The notes beneath the pieces are model-generated. The model worked only from the letters and a program-made list of their open reading frames with translations. It was not told the DNA's origin and did no database searches. Source: Novosphingobium aerophilum (GTDB lineage: Bacteria; Pseudomonadota; Alphaproteobacteria; Sphingomonadales; Sphingomonadaceae). Taken from it: DNA of 64,000 nucleotides. The DNA lies in the NCBI RefSeq assembly GCF_014230305.1, contig NZ_JACLAU010000015.1:1-64000 (forward strand). The letters run 5' to 3'. Positions 5,907-51,003 of the stretch are shown in pieces. The position numbers were made by a program, and so were the translations under genes. Each line of letters starts with the position of its first letter. The first letter of the stretch is position 1.

Positions 5907-6509
5907 TCAGCCGACCAGCGAAGCCTCGATCGCGATGCGGATCGCCTCGGAGGTGTGAGTTGCGCCCATCTTGTTGAGCATGTTGGCGCGGTGAATCTCG
6001 ACCGTGCGCGGCGAGATGTTCAGCTTTTCCCCGATCAGGCGGTTGGACAGGCCACCCGCGACCCCGGCGAGAACCTCGCGCTCGCGCTTGGTCAGCCGTT
6101 CGACCCGGCTGCGGGCCACGGCCTCGCGCAGCTTGGCCCCGGCGACCGACTTGGCGCGCTCCTCGGCGACGTCCATGCTTTCGATCAGTTGGCGTTCGTC
6201 GAACGGCCAGACCATGTAGTCCACCGCGCCGTGCAGCACCGCCTCGACGATCCGCCGGGGGGAAGGCTCTTCGGCGAAGGCGATGATCGGCAGCCAGTCG
6301 CCGGTCTGCCCCATGTGCTGCAGCAGGTCGGCAATCGACGTGCCGCTGTCATGCACCAGCAGCAGGCCGTCGCGCGGCCAGCGGGTGAACAGTTCGGACG
6401 TGTCCTCGAACGGTTCGACGTGGAGCCCGCTGCCCGACAGGCAGTGGGAGATCGCGGCACGGCGCCGGAAGTCGCTGTCGACGAGGAGGAGGTTGTTGCG
6501 TCGGCTCAT
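5907..6509 (-). CDS. FixJ-like response regulator with atypical receiver
   Basis: A 200-residue two-domain regulator: an N-terminal receiver (residues about 5-120) and a LuxR-type helix-turn-helix at about 137-195 (LTKREREVLAGVAGGLSNRLIGEKLNISPRTVEIHR). The acidic pair D11/D13 and a candidate phospho-acceptor D54 are present, but the conserved switch lysine before the PF motif is Trp101 (DYMVWPFDERQL). Receivers lacking that Lys usually signal poorly or work without phosphorylation (family knowledge). It lies just downstream of the fliD-fliS genes, about 130 bases away on the same strand, so a role in motility control is possible but not shown. Confidence 0.85.
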   Translation of the reverse strand: MSRRNNLLLVDSDFRRRAAISHCLSGSGLHVEPFEDTSELFTRWPRDGLLLVHDSGTSIADLLQHMGQTGDWLPIIAFAEEPSPRRIVEAVLHGAVDYMVWPFDERQLIESMDVAEERAKSVAGAKLREAVARSRVERLTKREREVLAGVAGGLSNRLIGEKLNISPRTVEIHRANMLNKMGATHTSEAIRIAIEASLVG

Positions 6510-8504: not shown

Positions 8505-8532
8505 AAGAACGACCTTCTCGGATGGGATTTAA
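8505..8532 (-). promoter_or_regulatory. Candidate FliA (sigma-28) promoter for fliDS
   Basis: On the minus strand: TTAAA (8532-8528), 14 bases, GTCGTTCTT (8513-8505). It matches the local consensus seen upstream of flagellin, the stator-like pair and flgM with one mismatch. Its -10 part ends only 7 bases before the fliD ATG. Confidence 0.6.
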
Positions 8533-8552
8533 TGGGCTTCCGGGGACGAGGA

Positions 8553-8575
8553 CGGAAAAACTGCGGATTTTTCCG
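8553..8575. terminator. Hairpin between flhB and fliD
   Basis: An 8-bp perfect inverted repeat (CGGAAAAA / TTTTTCCG) with a 7-base loop sits in the 213-base gap between the end of flhB and the fliD promoter. On the minus strand it is followed by no T-run beyond the stem, so it is at best a weak terminator separating the long fli operon from fliDS. Confidence 0.35.
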
Positions 8576-22159: not shown

Positions 22160-22210
22160 CGTTTGAGACCCCAAGCGGATTAACCATCCCCTGGCCTTGT
22201 TTTGGCGCGG

Positions 22211-22236
22211 GAACGTCAAAGGCTTCGGTAATTTAA
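22211..22236 (-). promoter_or_regulatory. Weak FliA-like match upstream of the activator gene
   Basis: On the minus strand TTAAA (22236-22232), 14 bases, then GACGTTCCC. It keeps the 14-base spacing and the CGTTC core of the four better FliA matches but differs at other positions. It might give feedback transcription of the fli operon. Confidence 0.25.
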
Positions 22237-22309
22237 GTCCTTGTATATTTGCGTATGTGGAAACCCGTGGATTCCGGCAGCTTCTTGCCGGTCGCGTTGC
22301 CGCCCCGGC

Positions 22310-23403: not shown

Positions 23404-24297
23404 TCAGGATTGCGGCTGGCTGGCCGCTGCCCGCAGGCGATCGATCTCGCGCCGCAGGCGTTCGTTCTCTTCCGACAATTGCAGCAGCATCCGCCGGGCC
23501 AGATCGCTGGCACTTTCGGGCGGAGCTGCGGGATCCGGGGTCATGGCGGCCGGTTCGGTCGCGGCTGGCGGGGCAACGGCCTTGCGCTCGAGGCGGGTCC
23601 GGGCCTTGGGGAGGGCGGCGCGCTTGCGCCGCGGGATCAGCCGATCCAGCCAGGCGACAACCCGCGCGACCAGGCTGGACTGGGGACGGACCAGTGCCCG
23701 GCTGCGCGGCAGCCCGGCGGGAGCGAGCCCGGCCGGCGCGGCCCCGGCTGGTGTGACGATCGGAGCCGGCCGGGCGCCCTCGGTGGCCGGGACAGATGGG
23801 GCCGGCGGAGCCTGGACCAGCGCTTCGGGCGCGGCGGGAAGGGGCAGCGCCGGAGTCGTGGCGGCGGCCCGGGTCTGGCGCGATGCCGTGCGGGGCGTCC
23901 CTTTGGCGACCTTGCGCGTCGACCGGTCCGTTTTGGCTGAATTGGTCTGTTTCCCTGCCGATCGCTGAGTGGGTTTTGTCCGTTTCGGCGCGGTTTTCTT
24001 GGTCGGAGCGCTGGCCGCGGTCTGGCCGGTCCGGCGCCGCGGGGTGGCCTTGGTCCCCGCACCGCCCTCCGTCGCTGGCGCGGGCTGATCGGGCCGGGCT
24101 TCGAGCGGAGCGGCGACGATCACCGCCCCGCGGTGGGGCGGCACGCGGATCTCGGTGGGAAAGGCTGCCGGCCCGCGGGCCCATTTGGGGCCGCCAGGCG
24201 CCGGGGCGGACACGGCGACGGTGGCGTCCGGTTCGGTCTCGAGCCGACGGGCGACGGACCGTTTGCGGCCGCGAGCCCGGGTACGCGCATCCTGCAT
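23404..24297 (-). CDS. Basic, low-complexity protein with C-terminal coiled coil, unknown function
   Basis: A 297-residue protein, very rich in Ala, Pro, Arg, Thr and Lys. Residues about 85-145 are a Lys/Arg/Thr/Ser stretch (TKKTAPKRTKPTQRSAGKQ), like a nucleic-acid- or polyanion-binding tail. A short basic amphipathic segment (VARVVAWLDRLIPRRKR, about 208-224) and a C-terminal coiled coil (DLARRMLLQLSEENERLRRE, about 265-284) are the only ordered parts. The coiled coil, the maintained long frame and the tidy hairpin between it and flagellin argue for a real gene. I recognise no family; position next to flagellin suggests, but does not show, a flagellar link. Confidence 0.55.
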   Translation of the reverse strand: MQDARTRARGRKRSVARRLETEPDATVAVSAPAPGGPKWARGPAAFPTEIRVPPHRGAVIVAAPLEARPDQPAPATEGGAGTKATPRRRTGQTAASAPTKKTAPKRTKPTQRSAGKQTNSAKTDRSTRKVAKGTPRTASRQTRAAATTPALPLPAAPEALVQAPPAPSVPATEGARPAPIVTPAGAAPAGLAPAGLPRSRALVRPQSSLVARVVAWLDRLIPRRKRAALPKARTRLERKAVAPPAATEPAAMTPDPAAPPESASDLARRMLLQLSEENERLRREIDRLRAAASQPQS

Positions 24298-34702: not shown

Positions 34703-35539
34703 TCAGTTCGCGATCACGATCGAGATCCGGCGGTTGCGCGGATCGTGCGGATCGGTGGGAATCAACAACTCGCGGTCGGCCACGCCCTCGATCCGCTTGA
34801 AGCGGTCCTCGCGGATGCCGTTGCGCATCAGCGATTGGCGGGTCGCTTCGGCGCGGCCGGCGGAGAGCGACCAGTTGTTGGCGAGCGGATCGGCCGCCTT
34901 GTAGGGCATGGCATCGGTGTGGCCGCGGATCATCAGCGTGCCGGGTTCGGGCGAGATCGTCTGGCCCAGCGCCATCAGCAGCTGCGTCGCGTCCGGGGTC
35001 AGGACCGTGGTGCCGAGCCGGAACATCGAGAAGTTGGCATTGTCGACCAGATCGATGCGGATTCCCTCGGCGGTCTGGACCATCTTCACCTGGTTGGCGA
35101 GCCGGCGCAGGCTGTCCGACTTGGCCAGCTTTTCCGCCAGCTTCTGCTGCATCCGCTTGATCCGCCCGGCACCTTCCTTGGGCCCGCCGGTGGTGTCCCG
35201 CGGGATGGTCATGGTTTTTATGCCAGTTTGGCCCGCACGATGAGGATAGTTATCCGCATCGGTGATAGAGCTCCCCCCCAGCAGCCCGTTGGACCCGGCG
35301 CTCTGCTGGCGCATCTTGACCAGGGTTGGGGTGAAGTAGTCGGCGATGCCCTTGCGCTGCTTTTCGGTTGTGGCGCCCAGCAGCCACATCAGCAGGAAGA
35401 AGGCCATCATGGCGGTCACGAAGTCGGCATAGGCGACCTTCCAGGCACCACCGTGGTGCCCCCCGGCGATGACCGTGACCTTCTTGACGATGATTGGTGG
35501 CGGCGGCTCGTTCTTGCCACGCTTGGCGGGTCCAGCCAT
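34703..35539 (-). CDS. motB: Flagellar stator protein MotB
   Basis: A 278-residue protein: one membrane helix (about 33-55) with the ion-binding Asp39 (WKVAYADFVTAMMAFFLL), a plug/linker region, and a C-terminal OmpA-like peptidoglycan-binding domain with NNWSLSAGRAEATRQSL. It anchors the stator to the wall. It follows motA by 15 bases. The basic, Pro-rich N-terminus is as in proton-driven MotB. Confidence 0.96.
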   Translation of the reverse strand: MAGPAKRGKNEPPPPIIVKKVTVIAGGHHGGAWKVAYADFVTAMMAFFLLMWLLGATTEKQRKGIADYFTPTLVKMRQQSAGSNGLLGGSSITDADNYPHRAGQTGIKTMTIPRDTTGGPKEGAGRIKRMQQKLAEKLAKSDSLRRLANQVKMVQTAEGIRIDLVDNANFSMFRLGTTVLTPDATQLLMALGQTISPEPGTLMIRGHTDAMPYKAADPLANNWSLSAGRAEATRQSLMRNGIREDRFKRIEGVADRELLIPTDPHDPRNRRISIVIAN

Positions 35540-35554
35540 GACTGGGCGTTCCCC

Positions 35555-36418
35555 TTACCGGCCGCGCAGGCTGTCGAGCAGCTCGGACAGGCCGGGCCGG
35601 AAGGCGTGGCCCAGCCCCGAACGCGCGCTTTCGACGACCAGCGGCTGCGGCCACCCGTGCAGGCTGGCGATGATCACCTGCTTGACCGCGTGGAAGATCT
35701 GCTCGTCCTGCTCGATCACCTGCTTGAGGCGTCCGGCCATCGGCGCAACCATGCCGTAAGCGAGCAGCACGCCCATGAAGGTGCCGACCAGCGCCGAACC
35801 GATCATCGCCCCCAGGATCGCCGGTGGCTTGTCGATCGAGCCCATGGTCTTCACCACGCCGAGCACCGCCGCGACGATCCCCAGGGCGGGGAGAGCATCG
35901 GCCAGGTTCTGCAGCGCGTGCTGCGGTTCGTGCATTTCGTGGAAATGGGTCTTCATGGCGTTGTCCATGACCTCTTCCACGGCATGGACTTCCAGCGTGC
36001 CCGAGCTGACCACGATCAGCGTCAGCGTGTCGCAGACAAGGTCGATCAGCGCCTTGTTGGCGAGGAGCCGCGGGAACTCGGCGAACAGGGTCGACGACTT
36101 GGGATCGGTGACATGGGCTTCGAGCGCGACCGGGCCTTCCGAGCGGAGCAGCTTCATCAGCCGCGTGGCCAGGATGATCGCGTCGATGTGGTCCTGCTTG
36201 GTGTGCTGGGGACCCTTGAAGATCTTGCCGAAGGCGCCGCCGATCAGCTTGAGCTCGTGCATCGAGTTGCCGGTGATCGTCGCGCCGATCGCCGCACCGC
36301 CGATGATCAGCATCTCGTGCGGGATCGCCTCCATGACCGGGCCCAGCGCACCGCCCGTGATGGCGAAGCCGCCAAACACCATGACCAGCAGGACAACGAT
36401 ACCGATACCAGCGAACAT
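35555..36418 (-). CDS. motA: Flagellar stator protein MotA
   Basis: A 287-residue four-helix membrane protein. The cytoplasmic loop carries the charged segment (TRLMKLLRSEGPVALEAHV) that meets FliG, and the third and fourth helices have LPALGIVAAVLGVVKTM and GTFMGVLLAYGMVAPMA. It forms the MotA5MotB2 proton channel with MotB. The pair follows flgL by 50 bases, so it probably belongs to the flgB-flgL transcript. Confidence 0.97.
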   Translation of the reverse strand: MFAGIGIVVLLVMVFGGFAITGGALGPVMEAIPHEMLIIGGAAIGATITGNSMHELKLIGGAFGKIFKGPQHTKQDHIDAIILATRLMKLLRSEGPVALEAHVTDPKSSTLFAEFPRLLANKALIDLVCDTLTLIVVSSGTLEVHAVEEVMDNAMKTHFHEMHEPQHALQNLADALPALGIVAAVLGVVKTMGSIDKPPAILGAMIGSALVGTFMGVLLAYGMVAPMAGRLKQVIEQDEQIFHAVKQVIIASLHGWPQPLVVESARSGLGHAFRPGLSELLDSLRGR

Positions 36419-38743: not shown

Positions 38744-39073
38744 TCAGCCCTCCTGCTTGCCCGGAGCCGGGGCGGCCGGAGCCAGTCCGGCGGCCGCGGC
38801 CAGCTGGGTTTCGAGCGACTTGGCAAAACCCAGCGCACCCTGGCGGGCGGCGATGTCGGCGAAGTGTTCGTCCTGCATCTGGCGGAAGGTGTCGAGCCCC
38901 TGGCCACCGAACAGCGCATCGTCGCCGCCCAGCTTCGCGGCGCGGGCGCTGGCCAGCATCTGGCGGACGAAGATCGCCTCGAACTGCTGGGCAGCCTGCG
39001 ACAGCTTCTCCCGGTCACTCGGGACCCTGGGCTGCAGCGAGAGCGGGCTGGCGGTGGCGGAGAGCGGGGTCAT
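38744..39073 (-). CDS. flgJ: Rod-binding protein FlgJ, rod domain only
   Basis: A 109-residue protein that matches only the N-terminal rod-scaffold part of FlgJ (KLSQAAQQFEAIFVRQMLAS, GGDDALFGGQGLDTFRQMQD). The muramidase half of the enteric protein is missing; the separate lytic transglycosylase at 47159 may supply that activity. Overlaps flgI by 4 bases. Confidence 0.9.
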   Translation of the reverse strand: MTPLSATASPLSLQPRVPSDREKLSQAAQQFEAIFVRQMLASARAAKLGGDDALFGGQGLDTFRQMQDEHFADIAARQGALGFAKSLETQLAAAAGLAPAAPAPGKQEG

Positions 39074-44096: not shown

Positions 44097-44444
44097 TCAG
44101 TCGCCCTTCAGCGCGCGGGTGATGGTTTCGACCCGGCCCTTGATGAACTGGAGCGTTGCCGAGTAGCCGACCGCGTTTTCGGCGAAGGCGGTCTGCTCGG
44201 TCATCATCTCGACCGTGTTGCCGTCCATGCTCGGCATGGTCGGAACCCGATAGCGGATCGCGCCGCTCACCGCCTGGCTCTGGCTCTGGCCGCTTTCGGC
44301 CGCCTTCAGTGCGGCGCCGAAATCGATGTCGCGGGCCTTGTAGCCAGGGGTCGCGGCATTGGCGATGTTCGAAGTGAGCAGGCCCATGCGTTGCGAGCGC
44401 AATGCCAGGGCGGTGCCGTGGATGCCGAACAGGGTTTCACTCAT
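44097..44444 (-). CDS. flgB: Proximal rod protein FlgB
   Basis: A 115-residue rod protein from ATG 44444 (MSETLFGIHGTALALRSQRM), with LTSNIANAATPGYKARDIDF and a C-terminal helix. GGAG precedes the start at good spacing. It is the first gene of the flgB-L (probably plus motAB) operon, read from the sigma-54 promoter at 44493-44508. The frame extends upstream to 44516 but that part lies within the promoter region. Confidence 0.94.
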   Translation of the reverse strand: MSETLFGIHGTALALRSQRMGLLTSNIANAATPGYKARDIDFGAALKAAESGQSQSQAVSGAIRYRVPTMPSMDGNTVEMMTEQTAFAENAVGYSATLQFIKGRVETITRALKGD

Positions 44445-44492
44445 TCGCGTTCTCCGGTGCGGGCGACGGGCGCGCCGCGTGCCAAGAGGGTC

Positions 44493-44508: not shown

Positions 44509-44595
44509 AGTTTCATGACAGGGGCGTTCGCGCGGTCCGTACCGGGGCGGACGGCAAGCCGGTGCCGGAAGGCGGCAAAAAATCGCCGGGCCCGC

Positions 44596-44623
44596 CTGAA
44601 ACCGGCCTGCCGCTGCCGTTCTT
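44596..44623 (+). promoter_or_regulatory. Candidate FliA promoter for the stator-like pair
   Basis: CTGAA (44596-44600), 14 bases, GCCGTTCTT (44615-44623). Same spacing and -10 as the flagellin promoter, with one change in the TAAA box. The leader to the ATG at 44653 is about 22 bases and holds GGAAGGA as ribosome-binding site. Confidence 0.55.
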
Positions 44624-44652
44624 AGGAGGGCAACGGAAGGACCTCCCGCACG

Positions 44653-45327
44653 ATGGCGCTCACCCTGATCGATGGAACGGCTGCGCTGATCGTGTTCGGT
44701 GGAACCGTGCTGGCGACCGTGCTGCGCAGCGGCTTTGCCGAAATCGGCGCGACCCTGCGCGCCTTGCGGCGTGCCTGGGGCCCGCATTACAGCGCCGATG
44801 CGGGCAAGGCCGAACTGGCCCCGCAGGTGCGCGAGATCCGCCGTGAGGGGCTGCTCCGGGCAAACCCGCGCAAGCTGGATGACCGCGAACTCGCCGAGGC
44901 GACCGAGGCGCTGTTCCACACCCGCTCGCTCGAGGCGCTGGTCAAGGCCCATGCCCGGCATCGCCAGGCCCGCCGCGACGAGGCCGAGACCGGGGTGCGC
45001 GTCCTGGCGCAGGCATCCGAGCTGGCGCCGGTGTTCGGCATGGTCGGAACCCTGGTCGCGCTCAACCGCATGCCGGCCGAACTGGCCACCGGCGATGCCG
45101 TGACCGGAGCGATCGGCATGGCGGTGGTGACCACGCTGTACGGGATTCTCGCCGCCAATCTGGTGCTCGCCCCCCTGGCGCGCTGGGTCGAACGCGCCGC
45201 CGAACGCGAGGAACGCGAGCGGCAGGTGGTGATCGACTGGCTGTCCGAACAGGTTGGCGGAGCCTTGCCGCATGGGCGCGAAGGGCGGGGCGAGAGCCGC
45301 GCCGACCAACCGCGCAAGGTGGCGTGA
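44653..45327 (+). CDS. MotA/TolQ/ExbB-like membrane protein
   Basis: A 224-residue protein: one helix at about 7-24, a charged cytosolic stretch (about 30-120, with ARHRQARRDEAETG), then two helices, ELAPVFGMVGTLVALNRM (123-140) and AIGMAVVTTLYGILAANLVL (153-172), the MotA/TolQ pore-helix signatures. Only three helices are seen, as in TolQ/ExbB, against four in MotA. It overlaps the next gene (TGATG), a mini-MotB-like protein. A FliA-type promoter lies upstream, so it is likely expressed with the filament. It looks like an extra stator or a flagellum-linked proton-channel pair, separate from motAB. Confidence 0.8.
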   Translation: MALTLIDGTAALIVFGGTVLATVLRSGFAEIGATLRALRRAWGPHYSADAGKAELAPQVREIRREGLLRANPRKLDDRELAEATEALFHTRSLEALVKAHARHRQARRDEAETGVRVLAQASELAPVFGMVGTLVALNRMPAELATGDAVTGAIGMAVVTTLYGILAANLVLAPLARWVERAAEREERERQVVIDWLSEQVGGALPHGREGRGESRADQPRKVA

Positions 45328-45746
45328 TGCGGGTGCGGGCCGGGGTCGGCTGGCAATTTGCCCTGGCCGACCTGTCGCTGATCCTCTTCATGGTCTGTGC
45401 CGCCGCCCTCGCGCGCGAGCAGAAGAGCCATGCCCGCGCCGTGCCGCCCCCGCCGCCGCCGTCCGCGGTTCAGGCCGTGGCCCTGGCCGATCCGGTCGCG
45501 GTGTGGCGCGCCGGGCCCGATATGCCGAGCCTGCAGGAGTGGCTGGCCTCGCAGACGATCGATCGGCGCCAGCGCCTGACCATCGTCGCGCACTACACGG
45601 CGGGCCGGGCGCAGGCCGCCTTCGCCCGCGCCGAAACCGCGCTGCGTGAACAGCCCCGTCTGCCCCCCGCCACGCGCATCGTGGTCGAGCCGGCCGCCAG
45701 CGATGGCCTGTCCGCCACGCTGACCTGGGATGTCGGGTCGCGCTGA
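45327..45746 (+). CDS. Mini-MotB/ExbD-like partner protein
   Basis: A 139-residue protein with a short cytosolic start and one membrane helix holding a central Asp15 (WQFALADLSLILFMVCAAAL), the arrangement of the proton-binding Asp in MotB and ExbD. After a Pro run comes about 90 residues, including LTIVAHYTAGRAQAAFARAE, that faintly recall an OmpA-like fold but lack its peptidoglycan-binding NxxLSxxR motif. It is translationally coupled to the MotA/TolQ-like gene. How it would be anchored to the wall is unclear. The product is far shorter than MotB (278 residues here). Confidence 0.7.
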   Translation: MRVRAGVGWQFALADLSLILFMVCAAALAREQKSHARAVPPPPPPSAVQAVALADPVAVWRAGPDMPSLQEWLASQTIDRRQRLTIVAHYTAGRAQAAFARAETALREQPRLPPATRIVVEPAASDGLSATLTWDVGSR

Positions 45747-45798: not shown

Positions 45799-46305
45799 AT
45801 GAAGCCCTTCGTCTTCACCGCCGCCCTGCTGCTGGCTCCGATCGCTGTCCCGACCGCCAGGGCCGCGCCCTTTGCCGATCCGGCCGCGATCGATGCCGCC
45901 GTCGCCCAGTTCACTGGGGTGCCGCTGGGCTCGACCGGCGGTGCAGCCCAGCCGGTCGACCGGCGCCTGCGGCTCCGGCCCTGCGCCAATCCGCTGAGCA
46001 TCGGCTGGTACGGATCGCGCCGCGACACCGTGCTGGTGCAGTGCCCCGACGTCGGCAGTTGGCGCCTGTTCGTGCCGCTGCTGGTCACCGCCGGCCCGGC
46101 CGATGCGCCGGCCGTGCTGCGCGGGGAAGGGGTGACCATCGCGGTCACCGGCCCCGGCTTCAGCGTGTCCCAACCGGGCGAAGCGCTTGATGGAGGTGCG
46201 GTGGGCGCCTGGATCCGGGTCAAGTCGACCACCGCCGGAGGCCAGCCGATGCGCGCCCGGATTGTCCGTCCCGGCCTGGTCGAGGTTCAGCTCTCTGGGG
46301 AATGA
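45799..46305 (+). CDS. flgA: P-ring chaperone FlgA
   Basis: A 168-residue periplasmic protein from ATG 45799: signal peptide ending ARAAP, then the SAF-type region with RLRLRPCANPLSIGWYGSRR and the FlgA ending GAWIRVKSTTAGGQPMRARI with VRPGLVEVQL. It assists P-ring (FlgI) assembly. GAGGA precedes the start. The longer frame from 45730 runs through the promoter. Confidence 0.88.
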   Translation: MKPFVFTAALLLAPIAVPTARAAPFADPAAIDAAVAQFTGVPLGSTGGAAQPVDRRLRLRPCANPLSIGWYGSRRDTVLVQCPDVGSWRLFVPLLVTAGPADAPAVLRGEGVTIAVTGPGFSVSQPGEALDGGAVGAWIRVKSTTAGGQPMRARIVRPGLVEVQLSGE

Positions 46306-46405
46306 TACCTAGCCCAAGGTATTGATTTGCAGAGACTCGGTCGGCCATTGTCGGCCGGCCTGCGGCACGCCATTGCCGCTTTCCGGCAAAAATTGTCGGA
46401 CCCCC

Positions 46406-46433
46406 TTAAAAGCCGCTGCAACCCACCGTTCTG
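46406..46433 (+). promoter_or_regulatory. Candidate FliA promoter for flgM-flgN
   Basis: TTAAA (46406-46410), 14 bases, ACCGTTCTG (46425-46433). It keeps the spacing and CCGTTCT core of the local FliA pattern. FliA control of its own anti-sigma factor is common in other flagellar systems. Confidence 0.55.
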
Positions 46434-46460: not shown

Positions 46461-46781
46461 ATGCCTATCGAATCCAGCCCTAACATCCCGAGCCCCGGCG
46501 TCGCTGGGCTGCGGCAAGTCGGCACGATCGATGCGCGAACCGTCAGACTGACGGCTGGCGCCAAGGATCAGGCTTCCGTAGGAAGCGCGCCCGACGCGGC
46601 AGCCACCGCGGCGGCGACCTTCCAGCCCAGCCAGGCGCTCGACCCGGGCCAGGCCCCGGTCGACACCGACCGCGTGCAGGTCATCCGGCGCGCGATCGAG
46701 ACCGGCAACTATCCCCTGATCCCTGCGAAGATCGCCGACGCCATGATCGCGGCCGGCCTGCTGCTGAGGACCCCTGCATGA
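46461..46781 (+). CDS. flgM: Anti-sigma-28 factor FlgM
   Basis: A 106-residue protein, disordered and Ala-rich at the start, with a C-terminal FlgM helix pair: VDTDRVQVIRRAIETGNYPL then IPAKIADAMIAAG. FlgM holds FliA inactive until it is exported through the finished hook. It overlaps flgN by 4 bases. Confidence 0.88.
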   Translation: MPIESSPNIPSPGVAGLRQVGTIDARTVRLTAGAKDQASVGSAPDAAATAAATFQPSQALDPGQAPVDTDRVQVIRRAIETGNYPLIPAKIADAMIAAGLLLRTPA

Positions 46782-47158: not shown

Positions 47159-48127
47159 ATGGTCGCGAGGATGCTGCCCAAGCCTTCCCGCGGTCGACGC
47201 AACCGGGGAAGCCGCTTGAGCGAGATCGCAAACAGTTCCATCCCACTGCCGCGGGTTGCGGCCCCGCAGGTCGCAGCCCCTCAGGTCGCAGCCCCTCAGG
47301 TTGCAGCAAGGGCCGCGATCGCGCGGGCTGCCCGGGCCACTGGCGTGGACTTCAACTTCCTGCTCGCCCAGGCCAAGCTCGAATCCGGGCTTGACCCCAA
47401 TGCGCGGGCCGGCACCTCCAGCGCGACCGGGTTGTACCAGTTCCTGGGCAGCACCTGGGTTGATACCCTGCGCAAGCACGGCGCCGAGCATGGCCTGGGC
47501 TGGGCCGGGGCGGCGGCCAGCGATCCGGCCATGCGGGCACAGGTGATGGCGCTGCGCCACGATCCCCAGGCCTCGGCCCTGATGGCGGCGGAGCTGGCCG
47601 GCGACAACCAGGTCGCCCTGACCTCGGCCCTCGGGCGCGCCCCCGATCCCTCCGAGCTCTACCTCGCCCATTTCCTGGGGGCCCAGGGCGCCACCCAGTT
47701 TCTCTCCGCGCTGTCGGTCGATCCCCAGCAGAGCGCCGCCTCGGTGGTGCCCACGGCGGCGGCGAGCAACCGTGCGATCTTCTTTGGCGCCGATGGCGCG
47801 CCGCGCACCCTCGATGAGGTGATGACCCTGATGCGCACCCGCCTGGCGGGCGCCATGGAAGGGGGCGATGCCGCGCAGTGGGCTGGCCAGTGGGCCGCCT
47901 ATCCCGCCATGGCGGCGCCATCGTCCGCGCCGGCGTTCAGTGGCGGTCCGATGGCGCGCGCCTTCCAGGCGGCCCAGGCGGCGGCCGGCGGGGGCAGCGA
48001 CAGCGGAGCCCGCCCGTCGATGGCCGAGACCCTGCGCCAGACCTTCGCGATCGGTGAGGCGTCGGGCGCGGCCGTGCCGGCCCATGTCCGTACGGCCTAT
48101 GGCCGGCTTTCGGCGCTGGGGCTGTAA
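47159..48127 (+). CDS. Flagellum-associated lytic transglycosylase (SLT domain)
   Basis: A protein of up to 322 residues. The SLT catalytic core is near 60-120: AQAKLESGLDPNARAGTSSA with the catalytic Glu, then TGLYQFLGSTWVDTLRKHG. Before it, the APQVA unit is repeated three times (15-base direct repeats near 47260-47300). The rest is Ala/Gly-rich. It would open the wall for the rod, filling the gap left by the short FlgJ. With the sigma-54 promoter at 47126-47141, ATG 47159 would have a leader of only 7 bases; TTG 47216, preceded by GGGGAAG, is a good alternative start. Confidence 0.82.
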   Translation: MVARMLPKPSRGRRNRGSRLSEIANSSIPLPRVAAPQVAAPQVAAPQVAARAAIARAARATGVDFNFLLAQAKLESGLDPNARAGTSSATGLYQFLGSTWVDTLRKHGAEHGLGWAGAAASDPAMRAQVMALRHDPQASALMAAELAGDNQVALTSALGRAPDPSELYLAHFLGAQGATQFLSALSVDPQQSAASVVPTAAASNRAIFFGADGAPRTLDEVMTLMRTRLAGAMEGGDAAQWAGQWAAYPAMAAPSSAPAFSGGPMARAFQAAQAAAGGGSDSGARPSMAETLRQTFAIGEASGAAVPAHVRTAYGRLSALGL

Positions 48128-50248
48128 ATGCTGGCCCGGCTCTCCAATCCTTCGGCAATCGCGCTTCCGGCAGGAATCCTGACGCTCATCAGCCTGATGA
48201 TCGTGCCGGTGCCGACGATCCTGCTCGACGTGTTCTTCGTGCTCAACATCGCGCTGTCGGTGGCGGTGCTGATGGCCTCGATGAATGCGGCCAAACCGCT
48301 CGACTTCTCGTCATTCCCTTCGGTCCTGCTGTTCGCCACCTTGCTGCGCCTGGCGCTCAACGTCGCCTCGACCCGCGTCGTGCTGGTCAACGGGCACGAG
48401 GGCGGGGCCGCCGCGGGCCATGTGATCGAGGCCTTCGGTGCCTTCCTGGTCGGCGGCAACTTCGCGGTTGGCCTGTTCGTCTTCATGATCCTGATGATCA
48501 TCAACCTGATGGTCGTCACCAAGGGCGCCGGGCGCGTGTCGGAAGTGTCCGCGCGTTTCACCCTGGATGCCTTGCCGGGCAAGCAGATGGCGATCGACGC
48601 CGATCTCGCCGCCGGGCTGCTGACCGCCGACGAAGCCAAGGCCCGCCGCCGCGAGGTGGCGACCGAGGCCGATTTCTATGGCTCGATGGATGGTGCCAGC
48701 AAGTTCGTGAAGGGCGATGCGGTCGCCGCGCTGCTGATCCTGGGGGTCAACATCATCGCCGGCTTCGTGCTGGGCATGATCAGCCACGGGCTGAGCGCAG
48801 GCGAGGCGGCGGAACGCTATATCACCCTGGCGGTGGGCGACGCGCTGGTCGCGCAGGTCCCCGCGCTGCTGCTGTCGATTGCGGCGGCGGTGATCGTCAC
48901 CCGCGTGTCCGACACCCGCGACCTGGCCGGCCAGATCGGCGGCCAGTTCGCCGATCCGCGCACCTGGCTCCCGGTGGCGGTGATCCTGGGCGCGATCGGG
49001 ATGATCCCGGCCATGCCGCAGACCATCTTCCTGCCCGCGGCGGGGCTCGCCTTCTGGCTTTATCGCACGCTGCAACAACGGGCCCGGCGACCCGCACCCG
49101 TGCTCGAACTGCCCCCCGTGGTCGATCCGCAGAAGATCGCGCTGGGCGACGTGTCGGACCACACCCTGGTCACGATCGAGCTGGGCTATGGCCTGGTCCA
49201 TCTGGTCGACGACCGGCGCGGTTCGCCGCTCGTGACCCGGGTGACCGGGGTGCGCAAGCAGCTCAGCCAGACGTTCGGCTTCATCGTGCCCCAGTTCCGC
49301 GTGCGCGACGCGCTGGAGGTGGCGCCGCACGATTACCGCATCGTGCTGGGCGGGGTGCCGCTGGGCACGGCCACGATCCGGTCGGACAAGGTGCTGGCGA
49401 TCGACGCCGGCGAGGCGCGCGACAATCACACCCTGGTCGGCGAACCGACCCGCGACCCCAGCTTCGGCTGTCCGGCGCTGTGGATCGATCCGGCCGCGCG
49501 CGACCATGCCATCGCCGAGGGGTTCCTGACGGTCGATGCCAGCACGGTGATCGCCACTCACCTCAACCAGCTCCTGGCCGAACGGCCGCAGGCCCTGCTG
49601 GGCCCGGACGAGGTCCGTGCCATCCTGGAGGGCGTCAAGGAGTATTCGGCCGGCCTGGTCGAGACGGTCTATCCGCAACCGCTCTCGCTTGCCGCCATCA
49701 CCCGCCTGCTGCGCAGCCTGCTCGAGGACGGCGTGCCCCTCGGCCATCCGGTGCCGATCCTGCAGAGCCTGTCGCAGGCGGTGCAGATCACGCTGGAGCA
49801 CGATCGCCTGGTCGATCTGGTCCGGGCCGACCTTGGCGCGCTGATCGTCGGCCGGCTGTGCGGCCCGCAGGAACGGCTGCCGGTCCTGACGCTCGACGCC
49901 AAGCTGGAGAACGCCATCGTCCAGGGCCTGCAGGATCCGACCACAGGCCAGCCGATGGTCGAGCCGGACCTGGCCCGCGCGATTGGCGAACAGATCGGCG
50001 CGATCATCGACGGGCGGGGCCCCATGGCCCTGCCGCCAGCCCTGATCGTGCAACCGCGTGCGCGCCGCGCGCTGTCCGCCCTGCTGCGGCTGCGCTGCCC
50101 GCAATGCACCGTGCTGTCGATCGCCGAGCTGCCACCCGCGCAGCCGATCGAGGTCATCGCGGTGATCGGCGGCGAACAACCGCCGGCGCCCGCGCTGACC
50201 CACCAGTCCCATTCCGATAGCCCCTTCGCAGAAGAGCTGGCCGCATGA
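48128..50248 (+). CDS. flhA: Flagellar type III secretion protein FlhA
   Basis: A 706-residue protein: eight N-terminal membrane segments with PVPTILLDVFFVLNIALSVA and the FHIPEP-type region around RVSEVSARFTLDALPGKQMA, IDADLAAGLLTADEAKARR, followed by a large cytoplasmic domain that docks chaperone-substrate complexes. It starts directly after the transglycosylase stop and overlaps fliA by 4 bases. Confidence 0.97.
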   Translation: MLARLSNPSAIALPAGILTLISLMIVPVPTILLDVFFVLNIALSVAVLMASMNAAKPLDFSSFPSVLLFATLLRLALNVASTRVVLVNGHEGGAAAGHVIEAFGAFLVGGNFAVGLFVFMILMIINLMVVTKGAGRVSEVSARFTLDALPGKQMAIDADLAAGLLTADEAKARRREVATEADFYGSMDGASKFVKGDAVAALLILGVNIIAGFVLGMISHGLSAGEAAERYITLAVGDALVAQVPALLLSIAAAVIVTRVSDTRDLAGQIGGQFADPRTWLPVAVILGAIGMIPAMPQTIFLPAAGLAFWLYRTLQQRARRPAPVLELPPVVDPQKIALGDVSDHTLVTIELGYGLVHLVDDRRGSPLVTRVTGVRKQLSQTFGFIVPQFRVRDALEVAPHDYRIVLGGVPLGTATIRSDKVLAIDAGEARDNHTLVGEPTRDPSFGCPALWIDPAARDHAIAEGFLTVDASTVIATHLNQLLAERPQALLGPDEVRAILEGVKEYSAGLVETVYPQPLSLAAITRLLRSLLEDGVPLGHPVPILQSLSQAVQITLEHDRLVDLVRADLGALIVGRLCGPQERLPVLTLDAKLENAIVQGLQDPTTGQPMVEPDLARAIGEQIGAIIDGRGPMALPPALIVQPRARRALSALLRLRCPQCTVLSIAELPPAQPIEVIAVIGGEQPPAPALTHQSHSDSPFAEELAA

Positions 50249-51003
50249 AACACGACCCCACATCCTTTGGCAGCAGATCCTTTGGCGCCAAGTCCGCGAT
50301 CGGTGCCGCCTATGGCGGTGACGTGAACGACCGGGTCCGCCGCTTCCTCCCGATGGTCCGGCGACTGGCCTGGCACGTCCATGGTTCAGGCCGTCCCGGC
50401 ATCGAGCTGGAGGACCTCATCCAGGCCGGCCTGGTCGCCCTGACCGAGTGCGCCCAGCGCCACTCGGGCCCCAGCGAGGACGGCTTCGCGGCCTATGCCA
50501 AGATGCGCGTGCGGGGGGCCATGGTCGATCTGATCCGCCGCTCGATCCCGCTGTCGCGGGGCGCCACCGAGCGGCGGCGCCAACTGCGTGAGCAGGAAGA
50601 TGCCCTGCGCGGCAAGCTCGGGCGCGATCCCAGCCCGGCGGAACTCGCCGCGGCGCTGGAGATCAGCGAGACCGAACTGGCCGACCTGCGCGCCGCCAGC
50701 GAGCCGATGCGGTTCGAATCGATCGACGATGCCTATTCCGACAGCGACTTGGCCTTCGCCGACCAGCGCCCGGACGTGCTCAACCAGTTGGCCGACGCCG
50801 AGATGCGCGAGGCCGTGGCCGGGGCGATCGCCGCCCTGCCGGAACGGCTTCAGTTGGTCGTCTCGCTGTACTTCGTCGAAGAGCTCAACCTGTCCGAGAT
50901 CGCCGAGGTGCTCGGGGTGTCGATCCCGCGGGTCCACCAGTTGAAGGCCCAGGCGCTCGAGCAATTGCGCAAGGGGCTGGCGGGTGTGGCCGACATCCTG
51001 TGA
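50245..51003 (+). CDS. fliA: Flagellar sigma factor FliA (sigma-28)
   Basis: A 252-residue sigma factor: region 2 (IELEDLIQAGLVALTECAQR, YAKMRVRGAMVDLIRRS), region 3 (LGRDPSPAELAAALEISETE) and region 4 (LPERLQLVVSLYFVEELNLS, EIAEVLGVSIPRVHQLKAQA). It directs RNA polymerase to late flagellar promoters, here proposed as TTAAA-N14-GCCGYTCTT. It is held by FlgM. Last gene of the flhA unit. Confidence 0.95.
   Translation: MKHDPTSFGSRSFGAKSAIGAAYGGDVNDRVRRFLPMVRRLAWHVHGSGRPGIELEDLIQAGLVALTECAQRHSGPSEDGFAAYAKMRVRGAMVDLIRRSIPLSRGATERRRQLREQEDALRGKLGRDPSPAELAAALEISETELADLRAASEPMRFESIDDAYSDSDLAFADQRPDVLNQLADAEMREAVAGAIAALPERLQLVVSLYFVEELNLSEIAEVLGVSIPRVHQLKAQALEQLRKGLAGVADIL

Follow-up and report, generated by a model that had tools for sequence, protein, structure and literature searches.

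The flagellar gene cluster of Novosphingobium aerophilum carries, between flgB and flgA, two overlapping genes (here called A and B) that sequence profiles and structure predictions support well as a derived MotA/MotB flagellar stator paralogue of the Sphingomonadaceae in the wide sense. Its locus and its putative promoter tie the pair to the flagellum. Alignments and models show A as having kept the stator fold and the channel residues without the first helix, and B as retaining the ion-binding helix together with an OmpA-like domain reduced in size, with the recognisable plug and the peptidoglycan-binding motif apparently lost. Many swimming sphingomonads have, beside the normal motor genes, a second motor-like pair in which the channel is kept and the wall grip seemingly lost, suggestive of a re-purposed motor part.

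Genomic context of the A–B pair

We analyzed a window of 64,000 nucleotides (NCBI RefSeq assembly GCF_014230305.1, contig NZ_JACLAU010000015.1, positions 1 to 64,000). Gene A (44653–45327, + strand) encodes a MotA/PomA-like wheel protein of 224 residues with three membrane helices, and gene B (45327–45746, + strand) a short MotB-like axle protein of 139 residues, with a transmembrane helix at residues 8–34 that includes Asp15 and a degenerate OmpA-like domain at about residues 55–135. These coordinates and lengths agree with a preliminary description of the sequence, as does the translational coupling that it proposed: the stop of A and the start of B overlap as TGATG, with the ATG of B at 45327.

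On the minus strand, the cluster runs motB, motA, flgL, flgK, flgJ, flgI, flgH, flgG, flgF, flgE, flgD, flgC, and flgB; on the plus strand, it runs A, B, flgA, flgM, a flgN-like gene, an SLT/FlgJ-like gene, flhA, and fliA. The neighbours of A–B that were identified are flagellar genes. Profiles assign the names motA, motB, flgB, flgA, flgM, flgN-like, SLT-like, flhA, and fliA, and the others (flgL, flgK, flgJ, flgI, flgH, flgG, flgF, flgE, flgD, and flgC) are presumed from gene order, with an N-terminal flagellin domain present at the place of flgL.

The rod gene flgB (44097–44456, − strand; Flg_bb_rod 4.1e-7), whose actual start may lie farther upstream, is divergent from A. Next downstream of B is flgA, encoding the P-ring chaperone (45799–46305, + strand; ChapFlgA 6.9e-8), and the same cluster holds flgM for the anti-FliA factor (46461–46781, + strand; FlgM 1.1e-7) and the sigma factor gene fliA itself (50245–51003, + strand; FliA_WhiG 6.5e-53, just below its cut-off). 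An ordinary motAB pair had been placed at 34703–36418, and Pfam and NCBIfam profiles identify both genes as canonical: motB (34703–35539, − strand) has plug and OmpA domains (MotB_plug 5.8e-19, OmpA 3.4e-10), and motA (35555–36418, − strand) scores above the cut-off of TIGR03818.

Conservation and distribution

Among named relatives, Novosphingobium piscinae comes closest (86% for A); N. lindaniclasticum and N. taihuense also carry the pair. A was present in 28 of the 36 other genomes of the genus, with flgB divergent beside it in 27 of these loci (one contig ends first) and with B and flgA following it in 26 (two contigs end first). Among the best 80 of 245 confirmed loci in named relatives, a B match followed A in 80/80, and the order flgB-A-B-flgA-flgM was unbroken wherever the contig reached. 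Of the 78 pairs in which it could be measured, the A–B overlap was 4 bases long in 68 and 1 base long in 6. Because motA and motB were also present in 61/61 loci with enough upstream sequence, A–B is no replacement for the normal stator there.

Relative to N. piscinae, dN/dS was 0.14 for A and 0.18 for B, both inside the span of seven neighbouring genes (0.05–0.25); two more distant loci gave A values of 0.57 and 0.44 and B values of 0.33 and 0.20. Alignments A1 and A2 comprised 25 and 26 of the 29 loci L001 and L006–L033, contig-cut or N-containing sequences being dropped, and L016 was dropped from this set for having no flgB match. Alignments A3 and A4 comprised 49/80 and 47/78 named sequences, each plus that of the window.

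In scans that scored only about ten candidates per genome, both here and class-wide, the B profile matched 81 of 396 Sphingomonadales genomes, and FlhA of the window matched 273; G320, with a partial B match and no listed FlhA match, was dropped from the B count. B is present in each of the 80 sampled genomes in which FlhA is at least 65% identical, and in 78 of them it lies no more than 4.4 kb from flhA; one contig break and one split cluster explain the other two. In the latter genome (G326, loci L151 and L152), the two parts of the flagellar cluster lie ∼1.47 Mb apart, and A–B is found with flgB and flgA, away from flgM–flhA. Two genomes of the same genus, G029 and G035, had only a distant FlhA (E 6e-125 and 3e-132) and no B match, and possibly possess a different flagellar system.

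The B profile alone suggested that the pair was absent from other genera of the family, and reading the loci showed this absence to be false. In genomes with FlhA at ∼53–58%, A and a B-like gene lie between flgB and flgA in 27 of 30 assessable clusters, hereafter the sister loci; the contig-cut L149 falls outside the assessed loci. The three clusters without A (G311, G294, and G214) have only partial A-profile matches, taken for MotA/ExbB-type genes. A further 23 loci with FlhA at least 65% identical are called near-genus, and both sets were hand-picked from the FlhA list rather than drawn at random. In eight of the 23 near-genus loci, 1.5–1.9 kb separate A from flgA. One genome with FlhA at 63% (G210, L150) has an A with an altered channel stretch, a FliA-type site scoring 25.1, and no room for B, a natural half-loss. 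This loss of B, together with the three sister clusters without A, indicates that the pair is dispensable in places.

Class-wide, the B profile matched 5 of 385 genomes, four belonging to the family, with the genome of the window counted, plus one marginal partial match (E 0.009). Phylum-wide, an A-type match at E ≤ 1e-15 was found in 181 of 299 genomes, family members included. At 22 loci outside the family, the proteins reach ∼25 residues or more beyond the start of A, and 20 of them have a MotB-like neighbour; neither flgA nor flgB was found alongside in 1.5 kb flanks searched with single-sequence queries, which diverged neighbours could escape. Viral contigs gave no match.

Gene A is a MotA/PomA-type protein without the first helix

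A matches Pfam MotA_ExbB at 5.4e-14, and among NCBIfam profiles it scores best with PomA and further flagellar stator proteins, in each case below the equivalog cut-off; two genes elsewhere in the genome, on other contigs, outscore A for PF01618. The PomA profile alignment begins at A residue 5, corresponding to PomA residue 29, so that the first helix is absent. Only nine codons lie between the start of A and the in-frame upstream stop in the window, and an extra N-terminal helix therefore cannot have been missed. Fewer than 20 upstream codons precede a stop in 44 of the 80 named relatives, and a helix-grade hydrophobic upstream stretch occurs in just one of the remaining 36 (L109, 1.61).

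A profile search of the PDB with A recovered PomA at 3.1e-20 and no ExbB or TolQ at E ≤ 1, and the NCBIfam TolQ profile reached E 0.091, far below its cut-off. The AlphaFold model (pLDDT 90.7) contains three membrane-length helices and thus does not form the four-helix square-fold membrane domain. All 23 Foldseek matches of this model at E ≤ 0.001 were flagellar MotA/PomA stators (TMq 0.67–0.79), with ExbB/TolQ appearing only from E 0.016 (TMq 0.34–0.46). The three-helix, MotA-type fold anticipated from the sequence is thus reproduced by the model and its matches. Of the earlier MotA/TolQ-like reading, the MotA/PomA half stands on profiles, PDB search, and Foldseek, and the TolQ/ExbB half falls: judged by the TolQ profile value and the late appearance of ExbB/TolQ in Foldseek, A is not close to that family.

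In a tree rooted on MotA of the window, A of the window type groups with near-genus A (support 0.85), and this group nests in a clade with all sister A (support 0.885); branching among the PomA-like outgroups was poorly supported. The equivalents of PomA P151, G154, T158, T186, and P199 are identical in 81/81 window-type A. The T158/T186 pair occurs in the Na+-driven PomA and likewise in proton motors, and so does not point to one particular ion.

The torque-interface region of A aligns to PomA almost without gaps, and within it we followed the positions of PomA E96 and R88, which we presume to be FliG contacts. The E96 equivalent is acidic in 27/27 sister A and Glu in 12/14 PomA-like outgroups, is acidic (Glu or Asp) in 11/23 near-genus A, and is Glu in just 20/81 window-type A. 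At the R88 equivalent, Arg is found in 14/14 outgroups, 8/27 sister A, and 44/81 window-type A. This trend differs from that of E96, so that decay of the torque surface is no single simple step between the sister and the window type, and a contact of A with FliG is still conceivable.

Gene B has a predicted degenerate periplasmic domain

B contains a single strong hydrophobic segment with Asp15 inside the helix, in line with the one membrane helix and aspartate first reported for it. Asp15 is invariant in 48/48 aligned sequences, and the Asp pattern is missed by two of 78 rows, one with an Asp followed by Met and one with a mis-called start. In L051 (one MAG, also seen as L012), which was left out of the B counts, the membrane helix of B is shortened, through either a deletion or an assembly error.

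No Pfam or NCBIfam profile matched B of the window at E ≤ 1, and a sequence search of solved structures returned nothing meaningful. In the AlphaFold model (pLDDT 88.3), helix 8–34 is followed by strand-helix-strand-helix-strand-strand. The top VIA-align rows were MotB periplasmic domains (Z 7.0, 86 residues, 3.2 Å) and other OmpA-like domains. These Z values are middling, and unrelated folds score nearly as high (Z 6.4 at rank 9). Foldseek gave nothing at E ≤ 0.001 (best E 0.042). These structural searches also brought out a resemblance to the wall-binding domain of SiiA.

Evolutionary comparison gives a stronger argument than the fold matches. In single profile comparisons, window-type B aligned with sister B over its full length (E 3.3e-9, probability 96%), sister B aligned with MotB of the window at E 3.2e-4 with a probability of only 39%, and window-type B aligned with MotB of the window over 12 transmembrane columns only (probability 0.4%). 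OmpA or MotB_plug exceeded its Pfam cut-off in six of the nine sister B scanned, OmpA in L139, L142, L143, and L144, and MotB_plug in three of the nine (L140, L141, and L142). MotB_plug matched neither B of the window nor that of the near-genus L153, the only two of this type scanned. As the direct MotB comparison is weak, the OmpA link of B in the window rests on the sister Pfam matches and the predicted fold. The ExbD-like side of the preliminary description did not hold, and a degenerate MotB is the best reading of B; descent from ExbD/TolR is rejected on the profile alignment with sister B and on the six sister proteins that pass an OmpA or MotB_plug cut-off.

The helix motif whose arginine presumably binds the wall (peptidoglycan) was detected by pattern in 23/27 sister B, 0/23 near-genus B, and 1/78 window-type B. 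The lone window-type match (L106) is a chance occurrence at the C-terminus, and the four sister B without a pattern match (L162, L165, L172, and L178) contain close variants of the motif by eye. Mean Pro/Ala fraction in the linker was 0.48 in window-type, 0.35 in near-genus, and 0.31 in sister B, and median B length was 146 in window-type and 144 in near-genus against 166 in sister proteins. The lack of a peptidoglycan-binding motif that had first drawn attention to B is thus confirmed by pattern and by the missing profile match, and the periplasmic part of window-type B is predicted to be an OmpA-like fold without the peptidoglycan-binding helix motif. Sequence comparison traces the missing anchor to an OmpA domain that has been lost in the lineage of the window and is retained elsewhere in the family.

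A FliA-type promoter precedes the pair

The FliA-like promoter proposed upstream of A–B is supported by the presence of the string CTGAA-N14-GCCGTTCTT and by a motif kept across relatives. TGAA-N13..17-GCCGTTC occurs once in the window against 0.11 expected by shuffling, and CTGAA-N13..17-GCCGTTC is not enriched genome-wide (6 matches, against 4 for a reversed control). We trained a two-block motif, CTGAA(A/T)-N11..13-TGCCGTTCT, on 80 upstream regions (the window and 79 loci; L087 was left out as its upstream region was too short). The motif scored above the 99th shuffle percentile in 78/80 regions, a partly circular figure as the same regions trained it, and ended 22–26 bases before A in 49/80. 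A pattern of like kind, chosen after the region had been seen in the first sequences, was present in 46/80 against 0.2 in shuffles. Conservation of the motif is stronger evidence for a promoter than the exact pattern, itself not enriched genome-wide.

The FliA (sigma-28)-type site of A–B (44596–44622, + strand; CTGAAA-N11-TGCCGTTCT in motif form) has the top score in the window, 27.3, followed by the site before flgM (46405–46432, + strand; 21.0), a flagellin gene (19.6), and a second flagellin gene (19.0). Two sites before fliD, at 8506–8575, score 16.8 and 17.3, and further sites lie at 22210–22237 (16.8) and 23937–23964 (15.1). The sites of both flagellin genes, flgM, and fliD were outside the training set of the motif. 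By sequence, the genes with motif sites appear to be the late flagellar set expected of FliA.

A looser FliA pattern was found before 1/27 sister A, though before 16/24 sister flgM, and before 15/23 near-genus A and 20/22 near-genus flgM. The trained motif reached a score of at least 16 in 19/23 near-genus A, and no sister A exceeded 8.6. In L194 and L198, a mis-called A start hides the promoter, and sites of 24.2 and 24.8 are present there. The distributions of FliA sites and wall-binding motifs in sister loci as against window-type and near-genus loci indicate that late control and anchor loss fall in the same lineage: in other lineages of the family, the pair occupies the same position, an OmpA domain or MotB plug can still be recognised in 6/9 B scanned, and the FliA site is lacking; in the lineage of the window, the anchor appears lost and a late promoter present. 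A MotA-type fold, a flagellar locus, and FliA-type control are all supported, and neither the lack of a MotA/ExbB fold nor homologues consistently outside flagellar loci and independent of FliA were found.

Proposed mode of action and alternatives

Flagellar stators are generally understood to push the rotor from a wall-fixed axle. We consider it about evenly balanced (probability roughly 0.5) that A–B acts as an unanchored, late-expressed A5B2 ion-driven unit in which A is held and B moves, as in ExbBD/TolQR. A and B would form an A5B2 rotary unit, made only after hook completion, and this would be no classical stator because B probably cannot grip the wall. A would most likely be held by a cytoplasmic or rotor-side partner via a conserved surface with G66, R69, D77, and R107, which are among the invariant cytoplasmic residues of window-type A (50 sequences). 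Ion flow would move the B dimer, and the compact periplasmic domain of B could act on other stators or on some flagellar component in the periplasm, as in ExbBD/TolQR, while late expression would limit ion leak from the plug-less channel. That it is A that is held and B that moves is a guess based on the absence of an anchor. More tentatively, the pair could be a stator turned inside out, one that has lost its anchor, its plug, and the first helix and has acquired late flagellar control, with A held on the side of the rotor while B rotates in the periplasm, a step towards an ExbBD/TolQR-style energiser.

Several results argue against an unanchored A5B2 unit: the R88-equivalent Arg persists in 44/81 window-type A and an acidic E96 equivalent in 11/23 near-genus A, support for the fold of B is middling (Foldseek best E 0.042; VIA-align Z 7.0), window-type B matches MotB of the window over 12 transmembrane columns only, and A is missing from 3/30 sister clusters and B from G210. 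Its main rival is an auxiliary stator anchored by another route, a true torque generator in which the P ring, FlgI, or an adjacent MotB would hold B in place and A would turn the rotor via FliG, adding torque or a second ion. The stator fold, intact channel, flagellar locus, and late promoter all fit such a motor, as do the R88-equivalent Arg in 44/81 window-type A and sister pairs that still resemble anchored stators. We nevertheless rate it as rather unlikely, given that the E96-type acidic contact is gone in most window-type A and that B of the window has neither plug profile nor wall-binding motif and has a Pro/Ala-rich linker. A function in powering, together with FlgA, late steps of assembly or transport through the envelope in the region of the P and L rings, comparable to the SiiAB channel, would suit the position of A–B between flgB and flgA in every locus that reaches (28 genus loci and the best 80 of 245 named loci), its company with flgB and flgA in the split cluster of G326, and the SiiA-like domain of B. 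It is made doubtful by FliA-type control in the lineage of the window, since FliA-dependent, late expression follows ring assembly, and by the 1.5–1.9 kb between A and flgA in 8/23 near-genus loci.

The pair might instead regulate the canonical motor as a brake, as a spacer competing for stator sites, or as a sensor of ion-motive force, and a channel kept while the acidic torque contact drifts would be compatible with this; the invariant channel residues suggest that ion flow matters, and we regard such a role as improbable. Least credible is a decaying duplicate without function. The losses of anchor motif, plug, and first helix, the loss of B in G210, the absence of A from 3/30 sister clusters, and dN/dS values for A that climb to 0.57 and 0.44 in comparisons with two less related loci could all be read as decay, but retention in 80/80, invariant channel residues, a conserved promoter, a gene overlap in 74/78 pairs, and dN/dS of 0.14 (A) and 0.18 (B) against the nearest relative make this very hard to sustain.

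With a widely kept stator relative that lacks wall grip, nature provides a test of the parts that a 5:2 motor requires to generate torque. Other lineages of the family carry an apparently anchored counterpart, which allows a direct comparison of both states among living species.

Comparison with known systems

In the FIT/GIT scheme, flagellar A/B pairs are described as having an expanded cytoplasmic domain, a four-helix square fold, a plug and linker, and an OmpA-type domain (PMC12505986), and the main text of that source mentions neither Sphingomonas nor Novosphingobium. A–B resembles the PomAB/TGI4-class flagellar stators (FIT) in the fold of A, the channel residues, the A-then-B order, the transmembrane aspartate, and the flagellar location. 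It differs in that A lacks the first helix, with three helices rather than the four-helix square fold, and does not conserve the E96-type contact, and in that B of the window lacks plug profile and wall-binding motif. The pair thus appears flagellar by descent, locus, and control, yet without four-helix fold, plug, or working OmpA motif.

Likeness to ExbBD/TolQR lies in the three-helix A-type subunit and in a small B with a short linker and compact domain; ExbD and TolR have ∼140 residues, similar to B. However, A is not close to ExbB/TolQ, and sister proteins tie B to MotB/OmpA. MotCD of Pseudomonas is, like A–B, a second stator set beside the canonical one, but its four-helix MotA and wall-binding MotB are complete. 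In Salmonella, the type I secretion system is described as having, in SiiAB, an accessory channel that is MotAB-like and coupled to a machine other than the flagellum (PMC6272769). The domain of B resembles SiiA, whereas SiiA has a peptidoglycan-binding domain (PDB title) and differs in locus and function. The ZorAB proteins of Zorya defence were ruled out, as no PADLOC model matched at E ≤ 0.01. A literature search, mostly at abstract level, found no description of the A–B pair.

Other features of the window

Upstream of the FliA site lies an imperfect inverted repeat, CGGCAAGCCGGTGCCG then CGGCAAAA (44552–44580). Similar CGGCAA...TTGCCG elements occur in the A upstream regions of many relatives and are possibly the site of a flagellar regulator. 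The SLT/FlgJ-like gene between the flgN-like gene and flhA (47159–48127) is separate from a short ORF at the place where flgJ is usually found (38744–39073), and rod-cap and muramidase roles may be split over the two. Near fliD, 5907–6509 (− strand) encodes a LuxR-type regulator with a FleQ-like receiver match, a candidate flagellar regulator.
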